From: Eggerthellaceae bacterium
GTDB lineage: Bacteria > Actinomycetota > Coriobacteriia > Coriobacteriales > Eggerthellaceae
Assembly (NCBI GenBank): GCA_017960005.1
Contig: JAGCZM010000136.1
Location: 1-10,050 of the forward strand
Reading direction: 5' to 3'
Length of the DNA stretch: 10,050 nucleotides
Part shown: piece after piece, positions 1-10,050 of the stretch
How the letters are laid out: each line of letters begins with the position of its first letter
Position numbering within the stretch: the stretch's first letter is position 1
Notes under the pieces: model-generated
What the model saw: the letters and a program-made list of their open reading frames with translations, nothing else
The model's database searches: none
What the model was told of the DNA's origin: nothing
Translations under genes and position numbers: made by a program

Positions 1-756
1 GCCGTCACCGTCGCCGGCATCGCCGTCACCGTCGAAACCGCCTTCCATATCATCGGATGCGATGTCTTGCGACACGACTTCCTCTTGACCGGCAGCTTCC
101 TCCTGAGCGGGAGCCTCCTCTTGGGTCTGATCCTGGTCTTCGTCCTTGGATCCGGACTTCAAAGCCTCAAGCTCTGCCTTCAGGCGCTCGGTCTCGCTTT
201 GAGATTCCTTCGAAAGCTTTCTGTTGCGAAGCACATCGAAACCGATGAGCAAAAGCAACGGAACACCGATGCATAAGATGATGCCCCATGTGGTCTGCAT
301 GAATATGACCACATTGCCGAGCCATCCGATGCGGGACTCGTAAATACCAACGAGATTCTCCGCGGGAACATCCAGTCTATCGGCGATGATGTTGGCATCA
401 CCCTTTGTCTTGAAGAACAGCTGACCGTCTTGGTAGATGATCTCCTTGACGCGGTGTACAACCACCGCATTATGGGTTGACTCCGGATCGAAGAAGGCAA
501 TGATGTCGTTGACTCTGACCTGCTCGGGTTCGATGTCACGACAAAATACCAAGTCACCGCTGTTGATGATGGGCGTCATGGAGTCCGTCAGGATAACCAA
601 AGGCGTCACACCACCGATGCTCGGAACGGATTCCGTGTCGGTGTAACTCTTGATGATCAAGATGACGTTGACCACCAAAATCGGTATGAGAATCACGCAT
701 AAAACTATGCCGATGATTGTCAGTATGCGGTCTTTTTTAGTACTGCTTGCGACCAT
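1..756 (-). CDS. sipW: SipW-type signal peptidase I (S26B), 3' end off the window
   Basis: This is a membrane-bound signal peptidase that removes signal peptides on the outer face of the membrane. The 252 visible residues start with MVASSTKKDR. A first membrane helix lies at about 11-36. The nucleophile is Ser59 in TDSMTP. His101 in VVVHRV replaces the Lys of ordinary bacterial enzymes, and Asp120 lies in TKGDAN. Ser-to-His (42) and His-to-Asp (19) spacing is close to Bacillus subtilis SipW. A second helix spans about 157-176. It is followed by a charged, probably coiled stretch (180-200) and a Glu/Gln-rich then Asp-Gly repeat tail still open at the left edge. The tail is odd, since SipW normally ends soon after its last helix. 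The ATG has GAAAGG 8 bases upstream. The gene lies 86 bases downstream of a TasA-like gene, its likely substrate, and has a candidate promoter of its own. Family certain; specificity inferred. Confidence 0.9.
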   Translation of the reverse strand, partial: MVASSTKKDRILTIIGIVLCVILIPILVVNVILIIKSYTDTESVPSIGGVTPLVILTDSMTPIINSGDLVFCRDIEPEQVRVNDIIAFFDPESTHNAVVVHRVKEIIYQDGQLFFKTKGDANIIADRLDVPAENLVGIYESRIGWLGNVVIFMQTTWGIILCIGVPLLLLIGFDVLRNRKLSKESQSETERLKAELEALKSGSKDEDQDQTQEEAPAQEEAAGQEEVVSQDIASDDMEGGFDGDGDAGDGDG

Positions 757-782
757 CAAAAACGCCTTTCTCGCACAACCAT
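756..782 (-). other. Possible 8-codon upstream ORF coupled to the signal peptidase gene
   Basis: The reading frame ATG to TGA encodes MVVRERRF. It has a better purine-rich site (GGGAGAGAG, 786-794) than the peptidase gene itself. Its TGA shares its final A with the peptidase ATG (TGATG), an arrangement typical of translational coupling. It is too short to call as a gene from sequence alone and could be chance. Confidence 0.2.
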
Positions 783-809
783 AAACTCTCTCCCACCTTA
801 AAGTAATAA

Positions 810-838
810 ATCATACCCCTTTTTATCCAAAAACCCAA
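810..838 (-). promoter_or_regulatory. Candidate sigma-70-type promoter of the signal peptidase gene
   Basis: TTGGGT (833-838) and TATGAT (810-815) are separated by exactly 17 bases on the minus strand. A transcript would start near 803, about 47 bases before the peptidase ATG. The -35 box is a moderate match. The gene may also be read through from the TasA-like gene, because I see no terminator in between. Confidence 0.45.
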
Positions 839-842
839 ATAT

Positions 843-1949
843 TTATTCGTGTGCTTCCACCGAAATGGGTATGGATACGGCGATGGAAAAGTCGTTTTGC
901 GAGGCCATGTTGCCGATCATGGTATCTACTTCGTCATCGTTGTCGAAATCCCACTTCCAACGGATCATGTACGAGCCGGTCTGTCCCACCTCGAGCTGCT
1001 GAAAATGCCCGAGACGATGGACATCGGCTATCGTACCCCATTGAAGATCTCCTCCGACGATATATCCGCTCAAGGAAGAAAACACCTTGAACAAAAGCGG
1101 CAAAGTGTCGGCATGATCTTCTCCGCTATATCTCACGTCGATCAAGACATCGACGATGACGTCAACGATATTGTTGCTTTCGTTGGTGATGTTAAACGAA
1201 TAAACACCTTCGGTACCCGGGGCGACAATGGGCCTTCCGTCTCGCGATTTGGCGGTTTCTTCGGAGGCGCTTGAGGAGTAGTAAGCGGGGTTGAACAAAT
1301 TGATACTGGTTTCTTTTGACCAGGTGCCCTTCTCGTCTCCCACGACGACATCGAGATTGACCGGTCCATTCGAAGGGTTTGCTCCGTAGATGCGTGCCGC
1401 AACGATGACGCAGCTTACGACGGTCAGAAAAATCGCCGCCGCCGTGATATAAAAAAGCAATCCGAAACCCGCATTGCCCACATGGATGCGCTCAACCGCA
1501 ATCTCGGATCCGACCGATGCCTCAAGATCGATGCATATCGCGTTGAACACGGCATTGTCGTCTTCCCGAATGCCTTCCCGAGTCGCTTCGGAGAAAGCCA
1601 AAGAGATTTCGTTTTTCTCGGATGAAAAGACCGGCGTGGTTATGTTCCAAACCAAAGCCTGGCCTTTGGAATTGCTTATGCGCACGCAAAGGTTTTTCTC
1701 GGAGATCTCTTCGAAAGTCTTTGAACATAAAAAGAAACGCACATAACCGCGTTTCTCATACTTCTCGAAAACGATATCGGGAGTGTCGGCAAAGACGGTT
1801 GCCTTGCCGTATTTGTCCACGCCGAAGCGACGGATACCCCAGCCTTCCGGTAACTGCTTTGAAGTGGAGTAAACCGCATCCGATGTACCCGCGCGACCGG
1901 TCTTGTCGACATCGCGAAGATACACTATGCCACGCAGGTTTTTGCTCAT
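843..1949 (-). CDS. TasA/camelysin-like membrane protein with soluble N-terminal domain
   Basis: 368 residues from ATG (MSKNLRGIVY). Residues 1-161 are soluble, beta-rich by eye and of a kind I do not recognise. One strong membrane helix lies at about 162-187 (FYITAAAIFLTVVSCVIVAA), followed by an outer domain to the end. That domain has the pattern of SipW substrates (TasA, CalY): a beta-sandwich with YSFNITNES and LPLLFKVF, then YMIRWKWDFDND followed by DTMIGN. The W-x-W-x-F then DT-x-x-G signature is common in genes beside SipW-type peptidases, and such a peptidase follows here. No Cys motif for sortase or lipid attachment is visible. I prefer this ATG, with GGGA 5 bases upstream; a GTG at 1997 in frame would add 16 residues but has no good ribosome site. 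Likely a secreted fibre or surface component, cleaved after the helix. Its position and partner are seen; its role is inferred. Confidence 0.7.
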   Translation of the reverse strand: MSKNLRGIVYLRDVDKTGRAGTSDAVYSTSKQLPEGWGIRRFGVDKYGKATVFADTPDIVFEKYEKRGYVRFFLCSKTFEEISEKNLCVRISNSKGQALVWNITTPVFSSEKNEISLAFSEATREGIREDDNAVFNAICIDLEASVGSEIAVERIHVGNAGFGLLFYITAAAIFLTVVSCVIVAARIYGANPSNGPVNLDVVVGDEKGTWSKETSINLFNPAYYSSSASEETAKSRDGRPIVAPGTEGVYSFNITNESNNIVDVIVDVLIDVRYSGEDHADTLPLLFKVFSSLSGYIVGGDLQWGTIADVHRLGHFQQLEVGQTGSYMIRWKWDFDNDDEVDTMIGNMASQNDFSIAVSIPISVEAHE

Positions 1950-2027
1950 CGTTTCCCGTCGAATAAAATACAGAACAATGTGCGTCCGGGCGGGCACACA
2001 TAAACGCTGCTTCTTTTTTTTGGGGGA

Positions 2028-2033
2028 ATTATA
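2028..2033 (-). promoter_or_regulatory. -10 box of the TasA-like gene
   Basis: A perfect TATAAT lies on the minus strand, placing the transcript start near 2021. No convincing -35 box lies 16-18 bases upstream, so an activator or alternative sigma factor is possible. The 5' leader to the ATG at 1949 would be about 72 bases, with an A8 run and a small GC-rich hairpin around 1979-1999. Confidence 0.4.
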
Positions 2034-2129
2034 CCAATCGAAAGTAAACCTAAACTTTACATTTTCGCAAATATACGGTCTATTTTATTTTTTTCAAACC
2101 CTCTGTCTTCAGCTATCGGATTTCGTCAT

Positions 2130-2141
2130 ATCACCGGTGAT
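2130..2141. promoter_or_regulatory. 12-bp palindrome, possible operator
   Basis: ATCACCGGTGAT is a perfect palindrome followed by T6. It sits in the AT-rich divergent region between the TasA-like gene and trpB, about 45 bases upstream of the trpB promoter. As RNA the stem would be only about 4 bp with a CCGG loop, so a protein-binding site is more likely than a terminator. The rest of 2034-2185 shows nothing else I can name. Confidence 0.25.
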
Positions 2142-2185
2142 TTTTTGCCGTTTATCCGCCCCAAAATCTTCTTTTGTTTTGCCTC

Positions 2186-2216
2186 TTGCGCAGATGATTT
2201 CGAATGGGTATATAAT
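2186..2216 (+). promoter_or_regulatory. Candidate promoter of the trp leader and trpB
   Basis: A perfect TATAAT (2211-2216, within TATATAAT) is preceded by TTGCGC (2186-2191). The spacing is 19 bases to TATAAT, or 17 to the overlapping TATATA. Transcription would begin near 2222-2224, at or next to the leader-peptide ATG. Confidence 0.5.
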
Positions 2217-2223
2217 GCGCACC

Positions 2224-2292
2224 ATGATTGAATCCGCAAAACATACGATCCTTTGCTTGCGCGCCGTCGGTTCGGCAGGGCGATGGCTTTAG
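2224..2292 (+). CDS. Putative trp leader peptide (22 aa)
   Basis: The frame reads MIESAKHTILCLRAVGSAGRWL then TAG. Its only Trp codon (TGG, 2284-2286) is second from the end, and the stop codon touches the first arm of the downstream antiterminator. No Shine-Dalgarno sequence precedes it. With the promoter at 2211-2216, the mRNA could start on or next to the AUG, so translation may be leaderless; an in-frame ATG at 2215 would overlap the -10 box and is unlikely. A short Trp-containing peptide placed exactly before mutually exclusive hairpins is the layout of ribosome-mediated trp attenuators. The single Trp is unusual, since known trp leaders often carry two or more. Inferred from layout; no homologue recognised. 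Confidence 0.55.
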   Translation: MIESAKHTILCLRAVGSAGRWL

Positions 2293-2398
2293 CTTCAAGA
2301 CTCGCAAGAGATTGAAGCATTTTTGCACGGGAATCAATCGAACACACGGGTTTAACCCCTTCTCGTCAAACCATTCAAAAACTTCCGGGTCTTGAAGC
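2292..2398 (+). promoter_or_regulatory. Competing RNA structures of a trp attenuator
   Basis: Arm 1 (2292-2304) can pair over 13 bp, with one G-U, with arm 3 (2386-2398); this antiterminator uses the 5' arm of the downstream terminator. Arm 1 can instead form a tight local hairpin with 2305-2318 (GCTTCAA with TTGAAGC, inner CTC-GCAA-GAG with a GNRA loop), which leaves the terminator free. A third hairpin (GATTGA 2310-2315 with TCAATC 2334-2339) competes with that local hairpin. A ribosome paused at the Trp codon would cover to about 2296 and still leave 8 bp of antiterminator available. A ribosome at the stop would cover nearly all of arm 1 and favour termination. Base pairing is seen directly; mechanism is inferred. 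Confidence 0.6.
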
Positions 2399-2416
2399 GA
2401 ACATCAAGACTTTTTT
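2389..2416 (+). terminator. Intrinsic terminator of the trp attenuator
   Basis: GTCTTGA (2389-2395) pairs perfectly with TCAAGAC (2404-2410) around an 8-base loop and is followed directly by T6. It lies 80 bases upstream of trpB, so it can only act as a regulated premature terminator. A second AT-rich hairpin (2414-2422 with 2430-2438) follows at once. Confidence 0.7.
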
Positions 2417-2495
2417 ATTGTTTGCTCAGAACAATAAATAATCCGTTACCCCGACTCACCATTCGATAAAAAATATTTATAAGAAAGGACATATC

Positions 2496-3761
2496 ATGAC
2501 CACGAACAACGCTCTTCCTCAGATGAACTACAAGGATTTCGAGACCTATCTGCAAAACTACCCCAATGACGAAGGCTTCTTCGGTCCCTACGGCGGAAGC
2601 TTCATTCCCGATCAACTCCAGCCTGCCATGAAAGAAATCACCCAGGCCTACCAAGAGATCTGCCAAAGCTCTCAGTTCATCAACGAGCTGCGTCGTATCC
2701 GCCGCGAGTTCCAGGGCCGTCCCACTCCCGTTTACCACTGCGAGCGCCTCTCCAAATTGTTCGGTTCCACCCAGATCTATCTGAAGCGCGAGGATCTCAA
2801 CCACACCGGCGCCCATAAGCTCAACCACTGCATGGGTGAAGGTCTTTTGGCCAAATTCCTGGGCAAGAAAAAGATCATTGCCGAAACAGGCGCGGGCCAG
2901 CACGGCGTCGCTCTTGCCACCGCGGCCGCTTACTTCGGATTGGAATGCGATATCTACATGGGAGAAATCGACGTTGCCAAACAGCATCCCAATGTCGTTC
3001 GCATGGAGATGCTCGGCGCCCGCGTCATCTCCGTCAAGACCGGTCAGCGCACCCTCAAGGATGCCGTTGACGCCGCATTTGTTGCCTATATGAACGAATA
3101 CAAAGATGCCATCTATTGTATCGGTTCGGTCGTCGGTCCCCACCCCTTCCCGATGATGGTTCGCGATTTCCAATACGTCGTCGGTGAGGAAGCAAAAGAT
3201 CAGTTCGTTCAGATGACCGGCCATCTGCCCAACGCCATCTGCGCCGCGGTCGGCGGCGGCTCCAACAGCATGGGTCTGTTCGGTGCTTTTTTGAAAGAGC
3301 CCGTCGAGATCTACGGTGTCGAGCCCATGGGTATCGGTGAGGGTCGCGGAGAAAACGCCGCATCCATCACGTTCGGTCGTCCCGGCATCGTACACGGCTT
3401 TAACTCCATCGCGCTGCTCGACGACGACGGCAATCCTTCTCCCGTCTACTCCATCGCATCCGGTTTGGACTATCCCTCCGTCGGCCCCGAGCATGCGTTT
3501 TTGCATGATGTCGGCCGCGTAAACTACAAGTACGTCACCGACGATGAGGCCATGACCGCGTTCTTCCTGTTGTGCCGTGAAGAGGGCATCATCCCCGCCA
3601 TCGAAAGTTCGCATGGCTTGGCATACGCCATCAAGTACGCCAAAGAGCACAAGCATGGTACCATTCTCGTAAACCTCTCCGGTCGCGGCGACAAGGACAT
3701 CGACTACGTATACGAGAAGTACGGCACCGGCGAGGATCTGTTGGCCAAACATCTCCTTTAG
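2496..3761 (+). CDS. trpB: Tryptophan synthase beta chain
   Basis: The PLP enzyme joins indole and L-serine to make L-tryptophan in the cytoplasm. The 421 residues match the family over the full length. The N-terminus carries [12 protein letters not shown] (27-38), and the PLP lysine is Lys108 in HTGAHK. The catalytic Glu130 lies in AETGAGQHG, and the phosphate-binding loop is GGGSN (253-257). [12 protein letters not shown] (323-334), ESSH and NLSGRGDKD (393-401) complete the set. It is about 24 residues longer than the E. coli enzyme, largely through an N-terminal extension. AGAAAGGA stands 6 bases before the ATG. No trpA or other trp gene is next to it, so it either pairs with a distant TrpA or salvages free indole. 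The leader upstream predicts control by tryptophan supply. The alkyltransferase gene follows after 30 bases on the same strand. Confidence 0.95.
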
Positions 3762-3791
3762 GAGAAAAACGCGGGAGGAGCAAGTAATCCC

Positions 3792-4331
3792 TTGAACAAA
3801 CAACCTGCGTTTTATAAGTACCAAACTCATCCGAGGCCGCTTGTCATCGCGGCCTCGGATGAAGGCATTTGCGGGGTATGGTTTGAAGGTCAAAAACATT
3901 TCGGGAAACCATACCTGCAAGACAAAGATCTCTCATCAATCGACTTTACATCTCTTACGGATACATCCGATATACGCGTCTTATATATAAAAGACGCCGT
4001 TTTGTGGTTGAATGAGTATTTCGCGGGCAAAAAGCCAAATCCGAAAAGACTGACCCTGCGTCTGTCGGGTACCGCTTTCAAAAAATGCGTGCTTTTGGAA
4101 TTGCTCGATATCCCCTACGGACAGACAACGACATACAAGCAACTGGCCTTAAATGTCGCAAGCAAAATCGGCAAAGAATCCATGAGCGCGCAAGCCGTCG
4201 GCGGTGCGGTATCACGCAATCCCATAAGCATCATCATTCCCTGCCATCGCGTCATCGCGCAAGACGGCAACCTCACCGGCTATGCAGCCGGGTTGGATAT
4301 CAAGCAATTTCTGCTTTTTCATGAGCTTTGA
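3792..4331 (+). CDS. ogt: Methylated-DNA--protein-cysteine S-methyltransferase
   Basis: A suicide DNA-repair protein that moves alkyl groups from O6-alkylguanine to its own cysteine. 179 residues, normal for the Ogt class. A degenerate N-terminal domain (about 1-88) is followed by the catalytic domain from TAFKK (94-98). IPYGQTTTYKQL (107-118) and AVGGAVSRNP (135-144) lead to the active site PCHRV with Cys151, then LTGYAAGLDIKQFLLFHE. The usual VW pair after TAFKK is VL here, a mild change outside the active site. The start is TTG; GGAGGA lies 12 bases upstream, which is long, but no better in-frame start exists. It follows trpB closely with no terminator in between, so it is probably co-transcribed and indirectly under the trp attenuator. 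No AdaA-type domain is attached. Confidence 0.92.
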   Translation: MNKQPAFYKYQTHPRPLVIAASDEGICGVWFEGQKHFGKPYLQDKDLSSIDFTSLTDTSDIRVLYIKDAVLWLNEYFAGKKPNPKRLTLRLSGTAFKKCVLLELLDIPYGQTTTYKQLALNVASKIGKESMSAQAVGGAVSRNPISIIIPCHRVIAQDGNLTGYAAGLDIKQFLLFHEL

Positions 4332-4362
4332 TTCCCGATTGTCTCCAATGACCGGGATACAC

Positions 4363-4983
4363 CTAGGGCATCAATGATGTGAACGGTACGATATATATAC
4401 CCGTTTCTTTATCATGCATGACCGCCTCCAAGTGTCCCACGATAATGCACATGAATTTGGGTTTGACCCGAACATTCTTATAAAAGTTAATCAGGCTGTT
4501 CTTTGCGTCTTCGATGCTTCCCGAGCTCAATTTGATTTCGAAGGCGGCATACTCCCCGTCGGCAAACTCGATGATGGCATCAACCTCATCCCCCGAATTA
4601 TTGTCCCTGAAATGGAACAGTTTGCCATCCTCGTATTCCGCATATATGCGTAAATCCCTCTCGACAAGGGCTTCAAAGAGCAATCCGAACACCTCGTGAT
4701 CGTGCATTAATTTGTCTGCGGACAAATTGAGAGCCGCGCATGCAAGCGAGGGATCGACCAAATGCCTTTTGGCGGATTTCCCTCCTGAAATATATATTTC
4801 GGATCGATCTTCGCCAAATCACGCTGACTTTTCTCCGTCATATATGTCACGCTGTTGGCTTGTCTTAAACCCGACCAGGTCTTTCCGCACCATTTGGGAC
4901 CTTCTATCGAAACCGCACCGAACAGTGTTAAGTATTTTTCTATCTATCAATCTCGGCATATAGCCGTCTTTTGTCAACGACAT
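4363..4983 (-). pseudogene. Broken DUF4143-type AAA ATPase
   Basis: The start is intact: GGGAGGTG lies 6 bases before the ATG, giving MSLTKDGYMPRLIDRK. After residue 16 the frame breaks in an A-rich stretch (about 4930-4937). The continuing family sequence resumes in another frame as LTLFGAVSIEGP with Walker A GPKWCGKTWSG, then TYMTEKSQRDLAKIDPKYIF. At about 4777-4790 it jumps directly into the C-terminal domain: KSAKRHLVDPSLACAAL, GLLFEALVERDLRIYAE, and EVDAIIEFADGEYAAFEIKL, which is like a PD-(D/E)XK fold. By family knowledge roughly 200 middle residues (Walker B and the rest of the ATPase) are missing. The first break fits loss of about 8 bases between short A-rich repeats. The last 132 residues remain open and could be made as a fragment. 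The family's role is poorly defined, and this copy is very unlikely to work. Confidence 0.85.
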
Positions 4984-5024
4984 TGCAAACACCTCCCACG
5001 ATGTGGCAGATTACCGATTCGGCT

Positions 5025-5124
5025 TTCTCAATGGTCGTGTTATACATTTTTCTGACGTTTTATTGGACACTTTTCTGACGATTTGTTAGACACTTTTCTG
5101 ATGATTTGTTGGACACTTTTCTGA
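5025..5124. repeat. 23-bp tandem repeats, about 3.3 good copies
   Basis: Three adjacent 23-base units (5048-5070, 5071-5093, 5094-5116) agree at 20-21 of 23 positions. The form is TTTTCTGA, then a variable YG, then a T-rich stretch ending in GACAC. A partial fourth copy (TTTTCTGA) follows, and a degenerate copy (about 13 of 23) precedes at 5025-5047. On the minus strand each unit reads from TGTC to CAGAAAAG. Multiple internal copies of about 20 bp starting with TGT are typical of IS21-like insertion-sequence ends, so this may be an IS remnant; that is inference. It lies just upstream of the broken ATPase. Confidence 0.75.
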
Positions 5125-5188
5125 AACCGCCTGTTTTTCAAGAGTAATCCTTCGGAATTCTTTGCACAAAGAGACGGGTTTCGGGCAT

Positions 5189-5219
5189 AAAAAACAAGCC
5201 GGCCATAACGCCGGCTTGT
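5189..5219 (-). terminator. Intrinsic terminator of the ABC transporter operon
   Basis: A perfect 10-bp GC-rich stem (5194-5203 with 5210-5219) with a 6-base loop is followed on the minus strand by a T run. It starts 30 bases after the permease stop codon. Confidence 0.9.
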
Positions 5220-5249
5220 GAATCCTCCGATACTCGCTTTTGACGAGAG

Positions 5250-6497
5250 CTAATTCCGGAGCATTTTGAACATTTCTTTGAATGTCGGCTTGGTGCCGTA
5301 CAAAAGCACACCGGCGCGATAGATACGTGCCGCCAAAATACCCACCGTAACCACGGTGGCAACCAGAATGCCGATGCTTATCGCTATCTCCCACCATGCA
5401 ACCACGCTCATGGCAAGACGCGCAAACATCGCCATCGGTGAGGTAAACGGCACATAGGAGAAGATGACCATACCGACGTTGTCGACACTGCCCGATGCCA
5501 AAGAGAATATGACCAATATATACGCGATGATGAATATAAAGGTGATGGGCATGACCGCGGTGTTGATGTCCTCGAGCTTGCTTGCCGTCGATCCGATGGC
5601 GCCGTACATAAACGCGTACAGCAAAAAGCCGAGCAGGAAAAACACCAACATGTAGATTAGCAGCTCCGGCGGGATATTAAACAAAGAAGAAATGATTTCA
5701 TCGGAGGCCCAATACGACTCGTTGAGCCTATAAAAAACTATCGCCGATCCGAATATCAATGCGATCTGTACCAAACCGGCAGCGCATGCCGCCAAGACTT
5801 TGCCGAACATCATGGAGATGGGTTTGGCCGATGTCACCAACAGCTCCATGGCACGGGTGCTTTTCTCCGATGCCACATTGGATGCGACCATCTGACCGTA
5901 AAGCATGATAATCATAAACAGCGCGATGACCATGATATAGGTATACAAAAAGTTGTTTGTCTGGTCCACACCGAGATTAATGGTCTCGTGAGTGGGGGCA
6001 ATCGACATGATTTCTTGGGCCTGTTCGGGTGTCATGCCCGCCGATACCATGCTGTTTAAGCGATACAGGTTTTGTATGACACCGTCCACGACGGCGGTGG
6101 CGTAGTCGCTGATGCTTATGTTTTTGACATAGTAGGTATAAACGGTCCAATCCTCAAACGCAAACGCACGCGATGCCGCACCGAGCGTAATCAGCGTTTC
6201 GATGCTTTGCGCATCGTCATGGGTAAATTCGACCCTATAGCTTCCCTCGAATGCCTGTTGCAGCACATCCTGCAGGACCAATCCCATGACATCATTGGGA
6301 GCGGTAACGATGACAACGGGCAAATCATTCGGATCTATGGGAGTGGGCTCTTCTCCTTGGCTCGTCGCATCGACGATGCGGGGTATGAACAAAACGATTG
6401 CCACGAGCAGCATCAAAAACACGGTGATGCCGATGAATATCTTGTTTTTGAAAAAGTTCATGAGCTCGAAGTTCATGATGGTCTTGAATTGTTTCAT
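5250..6497 (-). CDS. ABC-2 type transporter permease (NatB-like)
   Basis: Membrane subunit of an ABC exporter; its partner ATPase is encoded directly upstream. 415 residues, usual for NatB-type permeases. One helix at about 20-40 is followed by a large outer domain (about 41-180, including PNDLPVVIVTAPNDV). Five or six further helices come at about 184-205, 233-256, 279-299, 315-336 and 370-392. The segment EKSTRAMELLVTSAKP (211-226) after the second helix matches the conserved ATPase-contact region of this family. The start ATG overlaps the stop of the ATPase gene by 4 bases (ATGA), which suggests coupled translation and equal amounts. The substrate cannot be read from the sequence; Na+ export is known for the founding member, while other members export peptides or drugs. 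Confidence 0.88.
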   Translation of the reverse strand: MKQFKTIMNFELMNFFKNKIFIGITVFLMLLVAIVLFIPRIVDATSQGEEPTPIDPNDLPVVIVTAPNDVMGLVLQDVLQQAFEGSYRVEFTHDDAQSIETLITLGAASRAFAFEDWTVYTYYVKNISISDYATAVVDGVIQNLYRLNSMVSAGMTPEQAQEIMSIAPTHETINLGVDQTNNFLYTYIMVIALFMIIMLYGQMVASNVASEKSTRAMELLVTSAKPISMMFGKVLAACAAGLVQIALIFGSAIVFYRLNESYWASDEIISSLFNIPPELLIYMLVFFLLGFLLYAFMYGAIGSTASKLEDINTAVMPITFIFIIAYILVIFSLASGSVDNVGMVIFSYVPFTSPMAMFARLAMSVVAWWEIAISIGILVATVVTVGILAARIYRAGVLLYGTKPTFKEMFKMLRN

Positions 6498-7429
6498 TTG
6501 ACATCACCTCCCTCCTCGACCTCATCGTCTGTTCCTCCGGCATATTCGATGAAGATATCGTTTAAGGAAGGCTCGTATACGGCCATCTCGTCTATGTCGT
6601 ATGCCAAAGACAGCTTCTGCATGATTTCTTTTTTCTTACCCGACGATGTCAGCGTCAACATCACCTTGTATTCGTCCATGGGTATGGCGGAAACGATATC
6701 GGAAATGCCTTTGCAATCCCCGATGATGTTTTGTGCCTGCGTGGAGGAGACGACGAGTTTGTTTCGTTCGTATTCGCGTTTGATTTGATGCAAGTTTCCG
6801 CGCAAAACCATATGGCCGTGGTCGACGATGCCGACGTTGTCGCAAAACTCCTCGACATAGTTCATCTGATGGCTCGAAAACAAAACGATTTTGCCTTCTT
6901 GAATCTGTTGGCTGACGATGCCTTTGATCAGCGCCGCATTGACCGGGTCCAGCCCGGAAAACGGTTCGTCCAAGATGATCAGATCGGGATTGTGCACCAG
7001 CGCCGTTATCAACTGAATCTTTTGCTGGTTTCCTTTGGATAAGGTATCGAGACGCTTGTTGCGATACTCGGACATATCGAGTCGATCCAACCAATAATCT
7101 ATCGATTGAATGGCCCGTGCCTTGCTCAAACCTTTAAGTTCGGCAAAATAGATGAGTTGGTCGATAATCTTCTTGCGGGCATACAAACCGCGTTCTTCAG
7201 GCAGATAACCTATCTTGGTTGTTTCGTAATCGATGGGTTTGCCGTCTATTAATACCTCTCCCTCGTTTGCCGGAAACACCCCCATGATGATGCGGATGAG
7301 GGTGGTCTTGCCGGCACCGTTTCTGCCGAGCAATCCGAACGCCTGAGAGCTTCTCACTTCAAAAGAAATATCCTCAAGCACTCGCTTGTCGGCAAAGCTC
7401 TTGCGGATATTTCTGACTTCAAGCAGCAC
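6494..7429 (-). CDS. ABC transporter ATP-binding protein (NatA-like)
   Basis: Cytoplasmic ATPase driving the permease encoded next. 311 residues. Walker A is GRNGAGKTT (35-43), and the Q-loop region reads YLPEERGLY (75-83), as in NatA-type ATPases where a plain Gln is absent. The signature is LSKGNQQK (130-137), Walker B is LIILDEPFSGLDP with Asp154/Glu155, and the switch is His187 in SSHQM. About 85 residues follow the ATPase core, ending in an acidic tail (DDEVEEGG). The start is GTG with AAAGGAG 8 bases upstream. It lies 31 bases after the amidohydrolase gene and overlaps the permease gene, so the three form one operon. All catalytic motifs are intact. Confidence 0.92.
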   Translation of the reverse strand: MLLEVRNIRKSFADKRVLEDISFEVRSSQAFGLLGRNGAGKTTLIRIIMGVFPANEGEVLIDGKPIDYETTKIGYLPEERGLYARKKIIDQLIYFAELKGLSKARAIQSIDYWLDRLDMSEYRNKRLDTLSKGNQQKIQLITALVHNPDLIILDEPFSGLDPVNAALIKGIVSQQIQEGKIVLFSSHQMNYVEEFCDNVGIVDHGHMVLRGNLHQIKREYERNKLVVSSTQAQNIIGDCKGISDIVSAIPMDEYKVMLTLTSSGKKKEIMQKLSLAYDIDEMAVYEPSLNDIFIEYAGGTDDEVEEGGDVK

Positions 7430-7460
7430 GATGAATGCTCCTTTGTTTGTTTATGGGTTT

Positions 7461-8756
7461 TTATGCGAGTTCTTTCAAGATACGTGCCTTGGCTTCTTCG
7501 ACTCTTTGCTCGATCAAATCAATCTCCAAAAGCGGATAGGTACCTTCGCGATACAAAACGGAACCATCGACCATGGTCATATACACATCGCTTCCCGATG
7601 CGCTGTAAACCACGGTATCGATGGGGTTGCTTTGAGGCTTTAGGTAAGGCTTATCCAAATCGAACACGACCAAGTCGGCTTTGAATCCCTCTTTGATCAA
7701 ACCGCAATCCTCACGGCCTTGCGCCAAAGCGCCGCCGCGTGTTGCGATATACAAAGTCTTTGCCGCAGAAAGCACGGTGGGATCGCTGTTGCTTACCTTG
7801 GCAAGCAGGTTCATGAAGCGCATCTCTTCGACCATGTTGAGGTTGTTGTTGGACGCAACACTGTCGGTACCCAGCGCCACGTTGACACCGGCTTCAAGAA
7901 GCTTGTTGACCGGGCAAATGCCGCTTGCGAGCTTGGCATTGGATTTGGGACAGGTGGCAACCGATACGTTATGGGCTGCCAGGATGGCGATATCCTCATC
8001 GGAGATATGCACGCAATGAGCCGCGGTGGTGGGAAGATCGAATATGCCGCAGGATTCCAGATAGCGTACCGGAGACATGCCGTGGCGCTCCATGCAGCCT
8101 TGTACCTCTCCTTCCGTCTCGGAGACGTGTACATGGATGCGACCGCCGTTTTCTTTGACGGTTTGGGCCAAAGAGCGGGCCATTTTTTCGGTATTGGTGT
8201 ATTCGGCATGAAGGCAATACTCGACACGCTGTTTGTCTTCTTTGCCCCGAGACATCTCCTCGATGGCGGCAACGGTATCGGCATACTGCTGCGTATCCTT
8301 AAACTCGGTATCGCCTTGGGAGGTGATGCTGACACAGAAGTTGGCCTTTACATTGGCATCTTTAAACGCACGTTTGAGCGGATCGAGCTTGATATACATC
8401 TCGGAAGTCGATGCGATGCCGTATCGCAGCATCTCGGCGATACCGAGCATGCATCCCCAATAGATGTCCTCCTCGGTCATCTTGTCTTCAAACGGGAAGA
8501 TCCTCGTCAAAAGCCAATCCATGAGAGAAAGGTTTTCTCCGTAACCGCGCATATAAGCCATCGGAAGATGGGAATGAGCATTGTAGAAAGCGGGAATGAG
8601 CAGTTTTCCTTTGCCGTTGAATACGGTGCCGTAAGACATGGTCAAATCGGGGGGAACATCGCCGATATAGGCGATTTTACGACCGACGGTTGCCACGTAT
8701 TTGTGCTCTTGCACCTCAAAGTTCTCATCTACGATCGATATGTCGGAAAACAGCAT
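7461..8756 (-). CDS. Amidohydrolase, MtaD/SsnA-type deaminase
   Basis: A metal-dependent cytoplasmic hydrolase of the TIM-barrel amidohydrolase superfamily. 431 residues, the usual length for 5'-methylthioadenosine/S-adenosylhomocysteine deaminases and relatives. Metal ligands appear in order: His61 and His63 in NAHSH, His210 in HVHVSET with Glu213 as the likely acid/base, His247 in AAHCVH, and Asp298 in GTDSVASNNNLN. The N- and C-terminal beta parts include GKGKLLIPAFYNAH and ADLVVFDLDKP. The likely reaction is removal of an amino group from an adenosine-type substrate, perhaps salvaging 5'-deoxyadenosine, MTA or SAH; chlorohydrolases and SsnA have similar motifs, so the substrate is uncertain. 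AAAGGAG lies 6 bases before the ATG. First gene of the operon with the ABC transporter; a functional link is not evident. Confidence 0.88.
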   Translation of the reverse strand: MLFSDISIVDENFEVQEHKYVATVGRKIAYIGDVPPDLTMSYGTVFNGKGKLLIPAFYNAHSHLPMAYMRGYGENLSLMDWLLTRIFPFEDKMTEEDIYWGCMLGIAEMLRYGIASTSEMYIKLDPLKRAFKDANVKANFCVSITSQGDTEFKDTQQYADTVAAIEEMSRGKEDKQRVEYCLHAEYTNTEKMARSLAQTVKENGGRIHVHVSETEGEVQGCMERHGMSPVRYLESCGIFDLPTTAAHCVHISDEDIAILAAHNVSVATCPKSNAKLASGICPVNKLLEAGVNVALGTDSVASNNNLNMVEEMRFMNLLAKVSNSDPTVLSAAKTLYIATRGGALAQGREDCGLIKEGFKADLVVFDLDKPYLKPQSNPIDTVVYSASGSDVYMTMVDGSVLYREGTYPLLEIDLIEQRVEEAKARILKELA

Positions 8757-8794
8757 GTAAAACTCCTTTTTGACGTCAAATGTTGCAAATCGAC

Positions 8795-8824
8795 ATTATA
8801 ACCAAGTTATTCGGGGATCCTTAA
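8795..8824 (-). promoter_or_regulatory. Candidate promoter of the amidohydrolase-ABC operon
   Basis: A perfect TATAAT (8795-8800, minus strand) puts the transcript start near 8788, about 32 bases before the ATG. The best -35 is TTAAGG at 18 bases, a weak match. An 8-base palindrome TGACGTCA (8771-8778) lies in the short leader and could be an operator or chance. Confidence 0.45.
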
Positions 8825-8833
8825 AACCGCGTT

Positions 8834-9119
8834 CTATGTCAGAGCCAAAGATGCCCGATCGAGCAGGAAGTCGACGATGCGCTTGGTCACCTCATCGTTG
8901 AGCGCGGATGCGTTACGCACGCCCTCGTATTCGAAATCCTCCGGATTGATATATGAGATGGTCACCCGGAACACCAAACTCCGAAAGCTCGTCTTTGATG
9001 CATTCCAAGATAACGGATTTGCCCGCGCGACGCACACCGGTAATCACTTTGATCAAGTCTGCCTCGTAATAAGGACGAATGGTTTGCAGATAATGTTCTC
9101 TGATCAATCTCGTATAAAT
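8834..9119 (-). pseudogene. Truncated DUF4143-type AAA ATPase remnant
   Basis: The translated remnant begins IYTRLIREHYLQTIRPYYEA, followed by DLIKVITGVRRAGKS with Walker A GVRRAGKS. It continues through FGVPGDHLIY. There the frame breaks in an AT repeat (8949-8954): adding one AT unit would restore DHLIY-INPEDFEYEG, so loss of two bases is the simplest cause. The second frame runs through ALNDEVTKRIVDFLLD to a TAG at 8834. Members of the family have about 400 or more residues, so only the first 85-90 or so remain and Walker B and the C-terminal domain are gone. No ATG is present; GGGAGG (9122-9127) stands only two bases before an ATT where the family's initial Met would be. Nonfunctional with high probability. 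Confidence 0.8.
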
Positions 9120-9127
9120 TGCCTCCC

Positions 9128-9170
9128 GACCTTGCAAAAAATCGCGTTTTGTCCGATTTTTTGCAAGGTC
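9128..9170. repeat. Perfect 17-bp inverted repeat
   Basis: The arms 9128-9144 and 9154-9170 are exact reverse complements (GACCTTGCAAAAAATCG) around a 9-base spacer. No T run follows on either strand, so it is not a typical terminator. It abuts the ribosome-binding sequence of the ATPase remnant. Candidates are a regulator site, a miniature mobile element or an IS end; I cannot choose between them. Confidence 0.8.
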
Positions 9171-9199
9171 AACATCCTCGATTGACCGCTTTTTTCCGC

Positions 9200-9238
9200 A
9201 AAAACCGATTGCCTGCCGTTTAATCCGACAGGCAATCG
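9200..9238 (-). terminator. Intrinsic terminator of carB
   Basis: A perfect 10-bp stem (9206-9215 with 9229-9238, CGATTGCCTG) with a 13-base loop is followed on the minus strand by G and T5. It begins 31 bases beyond the carB stop codon. Confidence 0.8.
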
Positions 9239-9269
9239 AATGTTTCATTATTGGATTTTTCGATAACGA

Positions 9270-10050
9270 TTAACGCAGATCCATCAAATTCTGCAATGAC
9301 TTGACCTGTCCGCCATGGCTTTGCCTGCAGGCAAGAATACCGATACCGGATGCTTTTGCCGCCGCAATCGTAGTGCAGTAAGGCACCCTACCCTTGATGC
9401 ATGCGGCACGGATTTCGGCACCGTCGGTGTTGGCGCGGCGCTCTTGTCCGTGGGTGTTTACCACCATGCTGATTTTATTGTTGATGAGCATATCCACAAC
9501 GTTGGGACGACCCTCCGATACCTTTAAAACCAAAGCCGCCGCAACACCGGCGCTTTGAAGCGCATCGAATGTTCCCTTGGTGGCAACAATCATGAAGCCC
9601 GCTTCATCGAAGAGCTTGGCCACCTCGACGACGTCTTTTTTATCCGAATCGCATACGCTGATAAACACCGTACCCGATGTGGGAAGCACGGTCTGTGTTG
9701 CTTCCTGGGCTTTGTAAAACGCTTCCCCGAAATCTTCGGCCAATCCCAATACCTCACCGGTGGAGCGCATCTCGGGTCCGAGAACCGGATCAACCTCCGG
9801 AAACATGTTAAACGGGAATACCGCTTCTTTGACACCGTAGTGTTTACATACGGTGGCGGGAAGCTTATCCAATCCGGAAGGTTTGTCGTCATGCGCCGCC
9901 ATGATGGCTTGGATGGCGAGTTTGACCATGTTAAGGCCGCAGACCTTGGATACCAGCGGCACGGTGCGGCTGGCCCTCGGGTTTGCCTCGATGACAAACA
10001 CCACATCGTCTTCGATGGCGTATTGGATGTTCATCAAACCGCATACGCCC
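9270..10050 (-). CDS. carB: Carbamoyl-phosphate synthase large chain, C-terminal part
   Basis: The large subunit makes carbamoyl phosphate from bicarbonate, ammonia (from CarA) and two ATP, for pyrimidine and arginine synthesis. The 259 visible residues are the last quarter of a protein of about 1,070. They contain the end of the second ATP-grasp unit (GLMNIQYAIED, FVIEANPRASRTVPLVSK) and PEVDPVLGPEMRSTGEVLG. The allosteric MGS-like domain runs from about residue 127 (TVFISVCDSDKKD, VATKGTFDALQSAGV, VVNTHGQERRANTDGAEIR). The protein ends LQNLMDLR. The frame is open at the right edge, so the start lies outside the window. A terminator follows directly, making carB the last gene of its transcript. 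Confidence 0.96.
   Translation of the reverse strand, partial: GVCGLMNIQYAIEDDVVFVIEANPRASRTVPLVSKVCGLNMVKLAIQAIMAAHDDKPSGLDKLPATVCKHYGVKEAVFPFNMFPEVDPVLGPEMRSTGEVLGLAEDFGEAFYKAQEATQTVLPTSGTVFISVCDSDKKDVVEVAKLFDEAGFMIVATKGTFDALQSAGVAAALVLKVSEGRPNVVDMLINNKISMVVNTHGQERRANTDGAEIRAACIKGRVPYCTTIAAAKASGIGILACRQSHGGQVKSLQNLMDLR

Follow-up and report, generated by a model that had tools for sequence, protein, structure and literature searches.

The attenuators of the trp operons of Corynebacterium and Streptomyces are, in the portions of the account drawn on here (PMC1262725), built from an ORF with Trp codons near its end, where UGG is doubled or tripled, and from mutually exclusive antiterminator and terminator structures. 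Other leaders connect tryptophan to gene expression by different means, each as given in the excerpted parts of the sources: (i) rtpA of Bacillus subtilis, which encodes anti-TRAP, combines a T-box with translational control by tRNA-dependent ribosome stalling (PMC11255114); (ii) tnaC of Escherichia coli induces a catabolic operon through arrest (PMC8429421, PMC3902921); (iii) the tryptophan transporter gene trpX of Streptococcus suis is under T-box control (PMC9382623). The same gene can be preceded by a T-box in one group of organisms and by a leader peptide in another (PMC2965389, in part).

Here we describe the leader of a stand-alone trpB in a 10,050-nt stretch of DNA from an Eggerthellaceae bacterium, referred to as the window (GCA_017960005.1, contig JAGCZM010000136.1, positions 1-10,050, forward strand). 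With the attenuators of Corynebacterium and Streptomyces, which belong to the same phylum, it shares the ORF with Trp near the end and the exclusive antiterminator and terminator, as far as the consulted parts of PMC1262725 describe them; it differs in having one UGG after an invariant CGA and an antiterminator of arms 1 and 3 that starts from the stop codon, and the leader of its family is probably leaderless and precedes trpB alone or a PaaK-like gene. From rtpA it differs by the lack of a T-box in the window, and trpB here seems to fit the alternation of T-box and leader peptide outlined in the available part of PMC2965389. We interpret the region as a tryptophan-sensing, ribosome-mediated leader, here acting as a transcription attenuator of trpB, and assign this reading a probability of about 0.6; the leader would probably turn trpB on when tryptophan runs short. 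A survey of the literature (titles and abstract openings, with few subscription papers) showed, among the papers listed, neither this leader, nor a CGA-UGG sensor pair, nor attenuation in Eggerthella.

Anatomy of the leader

The features of the locus are listed in order of position, with the basis of each in brackets:

2211..2216, + strand: -10 box TATAAT (sequence; similar box in relatives)
2224..2292, + strand: leader ORF of 22 codons, MIESAKHTILCLRAVGSAGRWL, stop UAG (frame; same frame and AGRW end in relatives)
2263..2276, + strand: small hairpin P1 inside the ORF, GCCG 2263-2266 with CGGC 2273-2276 (alignment)
2281..2286, + strand: CGA-UGG (Arg-Trp) codon pair, putative tryptophan sensor (conservation; Clostridia trpB uORFs)
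2292..2318, + strand: hairpin P2, arm 1 2292-2298 with arm 2 2312-2318 (alignment, covariation)
2292..2398, + strand: antiterminator, 2292-2304 with 2386-2398 (13 bp including one G-U; ensemble fold)
2310..2339, + strand: alternative hairpin, 2310-2315 with 2334-2339, which would sequester arm 2 (sequence)
2389..2416, + strand: intrinsic terminator, GTCTTGA 2389-2395 with TCAAGAC 2404-2410, then T6 2411-2416 (sequence, scan)
2484..2489, + strand: Shine-Dalgarno-like AAAGGA of trpB (sequence)
2496..3761, + strand: trpB, stand-alone tryptophan synthase beta (TIGR00263, 526.7 bits against a cut-off of 392.45)
3792..4331, + strand: gene of an ogt-type methylated-DNA-cysteine methyltransferase, TTG start (TIGR00589, over cut-off)

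The leader ATG (2224-2226) lies 7 nt after TATAAT, and the leader mRNA is probably leaderless. A promoter had been placed here by the first-pass annotation: TATAAT is present, and in 36 of 37 relatives (see below) the in-frame ATG follows a TANNNT box by 6-8 nt, with no box in L253. A promoter scan of 1500-4000 on both strands found no good -35 before TATAAT; for this reason, the generic scan misses the leader promoter, its two promoter-like sites both being on the strand opposite to the leader. The Trp-containing leader peptide can be read directly from the ORF at 2224-2292, which ends in GGG CGA UGG CUU UAG (TAG at 2290-2292) and contains a single UGG, tandem Trp codons being absent.

P2 and arm 1 begin on the last base of the leader stop codon, as had been annotated, and the inner part of P2 consists of CTC/GAG with a GCAA loop. 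The antiterminator, with arm 1 at 2292-2304 (GCTTCAAGACTCG) and arm 3 at 2386-2398 (CGGGTCTTGAAGC), the terminator with T6 and the competing hairpins at 2292-2318 and 2310-2339 are likewise present as first described. An attenuator reading thus retains its leader ORF, terminator and antiterminator and loses the epithet classic, because there is a single Trp codon and the antiterminator is formed by arms 1 and 3. The layout of E. coli trpL is different: in the window, the antiterminator pairs arm 1 with arm 3, and the Trp codon precedes arm 1.

With one G-U allowed, the longest helix that the arm-3 segment can form with the upstream leader is this one of 13 bp; none of 2000 dinucleotide shuffles attained it (mean 6.2, maximum 12). 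A comparable terminator arose in 4 of 1000 shuffles of 2224-2495, and jointly with an antiterminator of at least 11 bp in 0 of 1000. A generic scan of 1500-4000 on both strands gave 3 terminator-like sites versus 2.5 expected; since generic promoter and terminator scans perform no better than on shuffles over 2.5 kb, the case rests on the combination of elements and on their conservation. The terminator at 2389-2416 ends no recognised + strand gene, because the gene frame upstream of the leader, 843-1997, is on the - strand. This frame and that at 1-759 (-) encode a SipW-like signal peptidase and an adjoining protein and are divergent from the leader; the adjoining protein is without a Pfam or NCBIfam match. 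When the window was searched against Rfam (cmscan), no family was matched at E<=1 and hence no T-box was recognised, which agrees with the earlier view of the leader.

A predicted fold switch governed by ribosome position

The leader could control trpB in the following manner: RNA polymerase would start at about A2224, so that translation would begin at the 5' end of the RNA. When charged tRNA-Trp is present, the ribosome would pass CGA-UGG, reach UAG and cover arm 1; pairing of arm 1 with arm 3 would then be blocked, the 3:4 terminator would form and transcription would end before trpB. Under a shortage of tRNA-Trp, the ribosome would wait with UGG in the A site and cover no more than the start of arm 1, so that the remainder could hold arm 3; the terminator would be prevented and trpB would be made. 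The enzyme would then turn scavenged indole and serine into tryptophan.

Ensemble folding of 2224-2418, in which all bases up to the ribosome front were forced to be unpaired, yields equilibrium values for these states. When CGA occupies the A site (mask to 2293), the terminator has a probability of 0.00. For UGG in that site, masks to 2295, 2296 and 2297 give 0.01, 0.37 and 0.69; one codon past UGG (mask to 2298) the value is 0.90, and once UAG has entered the A site it is 0.99, whether the mask ends at 2301 or at 2302. Before arm 3 is transcribed, hairpin 1:2 dominates the ensemble at 0.99. The Trp-codon and stop-codon positions of the ribosome are only 6 nt apart, and the modelled switch lies at or just after the Trp codon, with the exact footprint deciding the outcome at UGG; this register of the fold switch fits tryptophan sensing. 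In silico and at equilibrium, the ribosome position sets mutually exclusive terminator and antiterminator structures in the window. The proposal that ribosome position decides the fold is borne out on this level, masked folding flipping the structure near the Trp codon.

In the ensemble without a ribosome, the probability of the terminator is 0.13 and the antiterminator is favoured. To switch trpB off, the model therefore requires either that a ribosome is retained at the stop codon or that kinetics intervene; if the ribosome were released quickly, the model would predict read-through. As the ribosome-free fold reads through, long occupancy of the stop codon would solve this weak point, which brings in TnaC-like nascent-peptide arrest: a peptide ending in AGRW would, at high levels of free tryptophan, halt the ribosome at UAG, where it would mask arm 1 and let the terminator form, the signal being free tryptophan rather than tRNA charging. 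The terminator probability of 0.99 for a ribosome held at the stop suits such an arrest, and so does the AGRW end, which 37 of 37 aligned relatives have; of the six additional relatives, five share it and L299 reads AVRW. Conservation extends, however, to the third base of the rare CGA codon and not merely to arginine, residues farther from the C-terminus vary, and in Clostridia RW can be residues 3-4 (MKRWR), too short for a sensor in the tunnel. The tnaC leader peptide has a critical Trp, and its control uses Rho; the window resembles it in a leader peptide with Trp and a tryptophan-related gene and differs from it in having a biosynthetic gene and an intrinsic terminator. Arrest of this kind appears unlikely, and tRNA-Trp-dependent attenuation is retained as the preferred reading.

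Relatives of the leader in the family

A BLAST search with 2205-2490 found matches in 38 of 137 genomes of the window's family, which presumably includes Eggerthella lenta; these represent 15 genera, window included. The 37 other leaders were all examined and, together with six from a covariance model, constitute the 43 relatives. Alignment A1, whose 38 rows include the window, served to build this model (R1), which matches 35 of 326 genomes of the class at E<=0.01, all of them of the window's family and with one match each; the window is matched at E 7.2e-19 with its own row in the model, and its BLAST link to the relatives is independent of the model. L302 (G011), a weak match to R1, was rejected on inspection as being without a leader. 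All 37 relatives from the BLAST search have CGATGG, as do all 6 accepted ones from the model (L296-L301); the latter matter because BLAST favours rows with the CGATGG core.

The family leader consists of a -10-like box, an ATG 6-8 nt on, 48-60 nt to CGA-UGG, one further codon, a stop and a hairpin that starts on the stop codon; the window fits every feature of this leader, which in the family precedes a PaaK-like gene. The stop follows one codon after UGG in 36 of 37 BLAST-found relatives and is lost in L257, and only one UGG occurs in the window peptide and in each of the 36 peptides read from relatives. All 37 BLAST-found relatives have the A of CGA, whereas the Gly and Ala codons before it differ in their third base; in the ligase frames downstream of the leader, CGA accounts for 23 of 883 Arg codons. 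Gaps of the alignment inside the leader ORF are of 3 or 6 nt only. The mismatch rates of the three codon positions are 0.385, 0.445 and 0.430, and in view of this lack of a third-position excess the leader peptide is hardly constrained beyond its end. Lack of conservation had been set beforehand as the refuting result for the annotated leader, which withstood this test: leader end, stop and arm 1 recur in the relatives.

The structure composed of P1 and P2 (17 pairs), which is partly derived from the rows of A1, is paired in 95.7% of the cells of A1, versus 25-47% for slid versions. P1 is paired in 38 of 38 rows, with one-sided changes only; both-sided changes concern 4 pairs and 16 cells, all in P2. 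The share of paired cells, the counts of both-sided change and the covariation score of P1 and P2 were each attained by none of 500 shuffles, and the number of further pair types by 34 of them, with shuffles that leave the relatedness of the rows in place. In L300 and L301, the arms GCTTCAAG/CTTGAAGC are, by eye, replaced by GCTGC/GCAGC and the hairpin on the stop codon is kept.

Hairpin 1:2 covaries, and a second CTTGAAGC-like copy occupies the place of arm 3 in 13 of 37 relatives. Of 44 leaders, 4 (window, L232, L242 and L244) have a terminator-like hairpin with a T-run no more than 300 nt from CGA, and a conserved intrinsic terminator across the relatives was rejected. By these two counts, the sequence indicates termination as the output only at the window locus and a few others. 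Across 38 leaders, arm 1 is paired at 0.95 in the free RNA, at 0.41 with the ribosome at UGG and at 0.00 with the ribosome at the stop; since P2 stays about half closed while the ribosome is at UGG, the switch model of the window is not simply transferable to the relatives.

The conservation could also be that of an RNA site: CGAUGG, positioned between P1 and P2, would bind a protein or ligand, and the ORF would be incidental. Such a site would account for an invariance that includes the third codon base (37 of 37) and for the location between two consensus hairpins, but not for a frame that is kept by 3- and 6-nt gaps, nor for a start 6-8 nt after the -10-like box. In Clostridia, moreover, CGATGG is in frame with an ATG preceded by a Shine-Dalgarno sequence at varied spacing, and single-sequence folds around it gave no recognised hairpin pair of the P1/P2 type. 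An RNA site with an incidental ORF is thus considered very unlikely.

CGA-UGG uORFs upstream of trpB in Clostridia

Independently of the family leaders, 19 of 80 loci in the clade of the window trpB, all titled Clostridia, have a short uORF with in-frame CGATGG before trpB. The uORFs have a Shine-Dalgarno sequence of 4 or 5 of 5 in 18 of 19 cases (L053 is weaker); a further candidate, L104, has a TTG start and was dropped from the count as spurious. They occur in 14 of 22 loci with a T-box motif versus 5 of 58 others. When uORFs with ATG and Shine-Dalgarno sequence were searched for Arg-Trp with any Arg codon, the same 18 loci were retrieved, with CGA in 18 of 18. Rfam T-boxes at gathering score were found in 4 of the 12 loci scanned (L032, L035, L036 and L039); with UGG at the specifier place, as read by eye, the T-boxes appear to be tryptophan-specific. 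CGATGG is in frame with the ATG at several spacings. Of the 315 Arg codons in the trpB frames of 19 flagged loci (with L104, without L053), 3 are CGA. All long frames of the 19 uORF loci taken together have CGA at 129 of 1912 Arg codons and at 0 of 5 before UGG, and nine family neighbourhoods at 201 of 1949 and at 3 of 24 before UGG, both with crude gene calls.

These loci share with rtpA, as sketched in the part of its description at hand, the order of T-box (UGG specifier by eye), Trp uORF and gene. They differ from it in having one UGG after CGA, in the gene, which is trpB or a transporter, and in showing no consistent Shine-Dalgarno sequestration: mean accessibility is 0.45 free, 0.52 with the ribosome at UGG and 0.58 at the stop, without a consistent effect in the 27 of 31 loci that were usable (4 without a start, some starts doubtful). 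Sequestration was consequently rejected as the output of the Clostridia uORFs.

Screening 295 genomes of a single order for the pattern yielded hits in at least 165, from which 17 places were chosen by eye: 10 carry trpB of the window's clade (L173, described below, is among them), two (L185 and L186) TrpX-like genes (NF041285, below cut-off), and five (L181, L182, L183, L184 and L188) were rejected as chance matches. L185 and L186 resemble trpX of S. suis in T-box and transporter and have the CGA-UGG uORF in addition. A pattern search in the 19 Clostridia genomes and G000 matched 18 of 20, many out of frame and by eye due to chance. Among 28 PF04392 places in 32 genomes, three have an upstream T-box motif (L190, L191 and L195), and a uORF is present at two of these; both were already known, and the prediction for TrpX gave no independent support. 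L196 has a CGATGG frame without Shine-Dalgarno sequence or T-box.

A leader that lowers trpB through its terminator and helices and senses nothing, or senses general translation rather than tryptophan, would be in keeping with the terminator in 4 of 44 leaders and with just one Trp codon. It is difficult to reconcile with conservation and covariation in 43 relatives and with the recurrence of CGA-UGG leaders before tryptophan-related genes in Clostridia, and such a constitutive role appears distinctly unlikely.

In a tentative and somewhat doubtful extension of the tryptophan-sensing reading, CGA-UGG would be a tryptophanyl-tRNA sensor pair in at least two phyla, with varied outputs. With CGA in the P site, decoding relies on a weak inosine-adenine pair; the next step might therefore hang on the supply of Trp-tRNA, so that one Trp codon would suffice. 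If so, CGA-UGG would form a second tier behind the tryptophan T-boxes in Clostridia (trpB, TrpX-like, and ECF S-component-like plus trpB) and the sole sensor in leaders of the Eggerthellaceae type (PaaK-like ligase; trpB in the window). A codon-pair rule, a rare CGA before the sensing codon, would explain sensing by a single Trp codon and is searchable in other leader peptides.

Several loci deviate from the common arrangement. L173 combines a T-box, a CGA-UGG uORF, an ECF S-component-like gene, which is a candidate indole or tryptophan importer, and trpB. In L043, about 160 nt separate the CGA-UGG uORF from trpB, far more than in the other loci of the accessibility comparison, which looks like an insertion. 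The Selenomonadales trpB loci L074, L083 and L107 have another conserved uORF (..YSKKYSTWGA.AP..), in which AAAAAATATT can pair with AATATTTTTT near the Shine-Dalgarno sequence of trpB; with a GGGTGC/GCACCC hairpin after the Trp codon, it looks like a translational tryptophan attenuator.

Genes preceded by the leader

Leaders of this type had been described as usual before whole trp operons, which does not hold for the family: by tblastn, a PaaK-like ligase lies downstream of the leader in 43 of 43 loci. For three of the ligase proteins, the best NCBIfam match is TIGR02155, at 377-391 bits and under the equivalog cut-off of 646. Upstream of the ligase, iorA and iorB are found in 8 of 9 larger neighbourhoods (in L264, IorA is over the family cut-off and IorB below); in the ninth, L262, iorB alone lies within the examined stretch, about 5 kb upstream. 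Matches to iorA were present in 36 of 36 family genomes (E<=1e-30), and it was therefore rejected as a marker of genomes with the leader.

One known way of making aromatic amino acids is to activate arylacetates and carboxylate them reductively via indolepyruvate oxidoreductase. According to the accessible part of PMC13285125, an oxidative, fermentative branch is known as well; as both branches exist, we infer rather than observe that the ligase and ior genes serve tryptophan. Two observations favour such a role: the Trp codon of the leader, and the lack of overlap between TrpB and leader in G001-G035, where 11 genomes have a strong TrpB match (E<=1e-30) and 11 others the leader (about p = 0.006, calculated by hand and uncorrected for kinship, the model search having taken in part of the 35). 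The PaaK-like ligase may thus help the relatives to obtain tryptophan. One leader would serve different genes, as the PaaK-like ligase in 43 relatives and the putatively indole-using TrpB here suggest; it is a defined and testable element, probably for tryptophan acquisition.

In the window, the ogt-type gene begins 30 nt after trpB and is possibly the second gene of a trpB unit. Farther downstream, a DUF4143 match at 4363-4761 covers the second half of the profile only and is perhaps a decayed gene; short near-identical repeats (GACACTTTTCTGA) follow at about 5050-5125.

The window trpB most resembles those of Clostridia. The nearest relatives of the window TrpB, where named, are from Oscillospiraceae, other Clostridia or Firmicutes, and farther out the clade includes entries titled Akkermansia, Planctomycetia and others. 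Matches to the window trpB at E<=1e-130 are found in 2 of 138 family genomes, and at E<=1e-170 in 4 of 396 genomes of a class sample and 1 of 396 of a phylum sample, window included; L002, the other family genome with a close trpB relative, is without the leader. No trpA match was found in the window's genome (78% complete), and among 20 genomes with a trpB of the window type, 3 have a trpA above the cut-off. Use of exogenous indole by TrpB is reported, in the section of PMC11085991 considered here, for bifidobacteria (TrpB fused to TrpC) and Thermococcus, and by analogy the window TrpB may use exogenous indole. P0002 is a TrpB of 561 aa in which some 150 residues appear to be duplicated internally.
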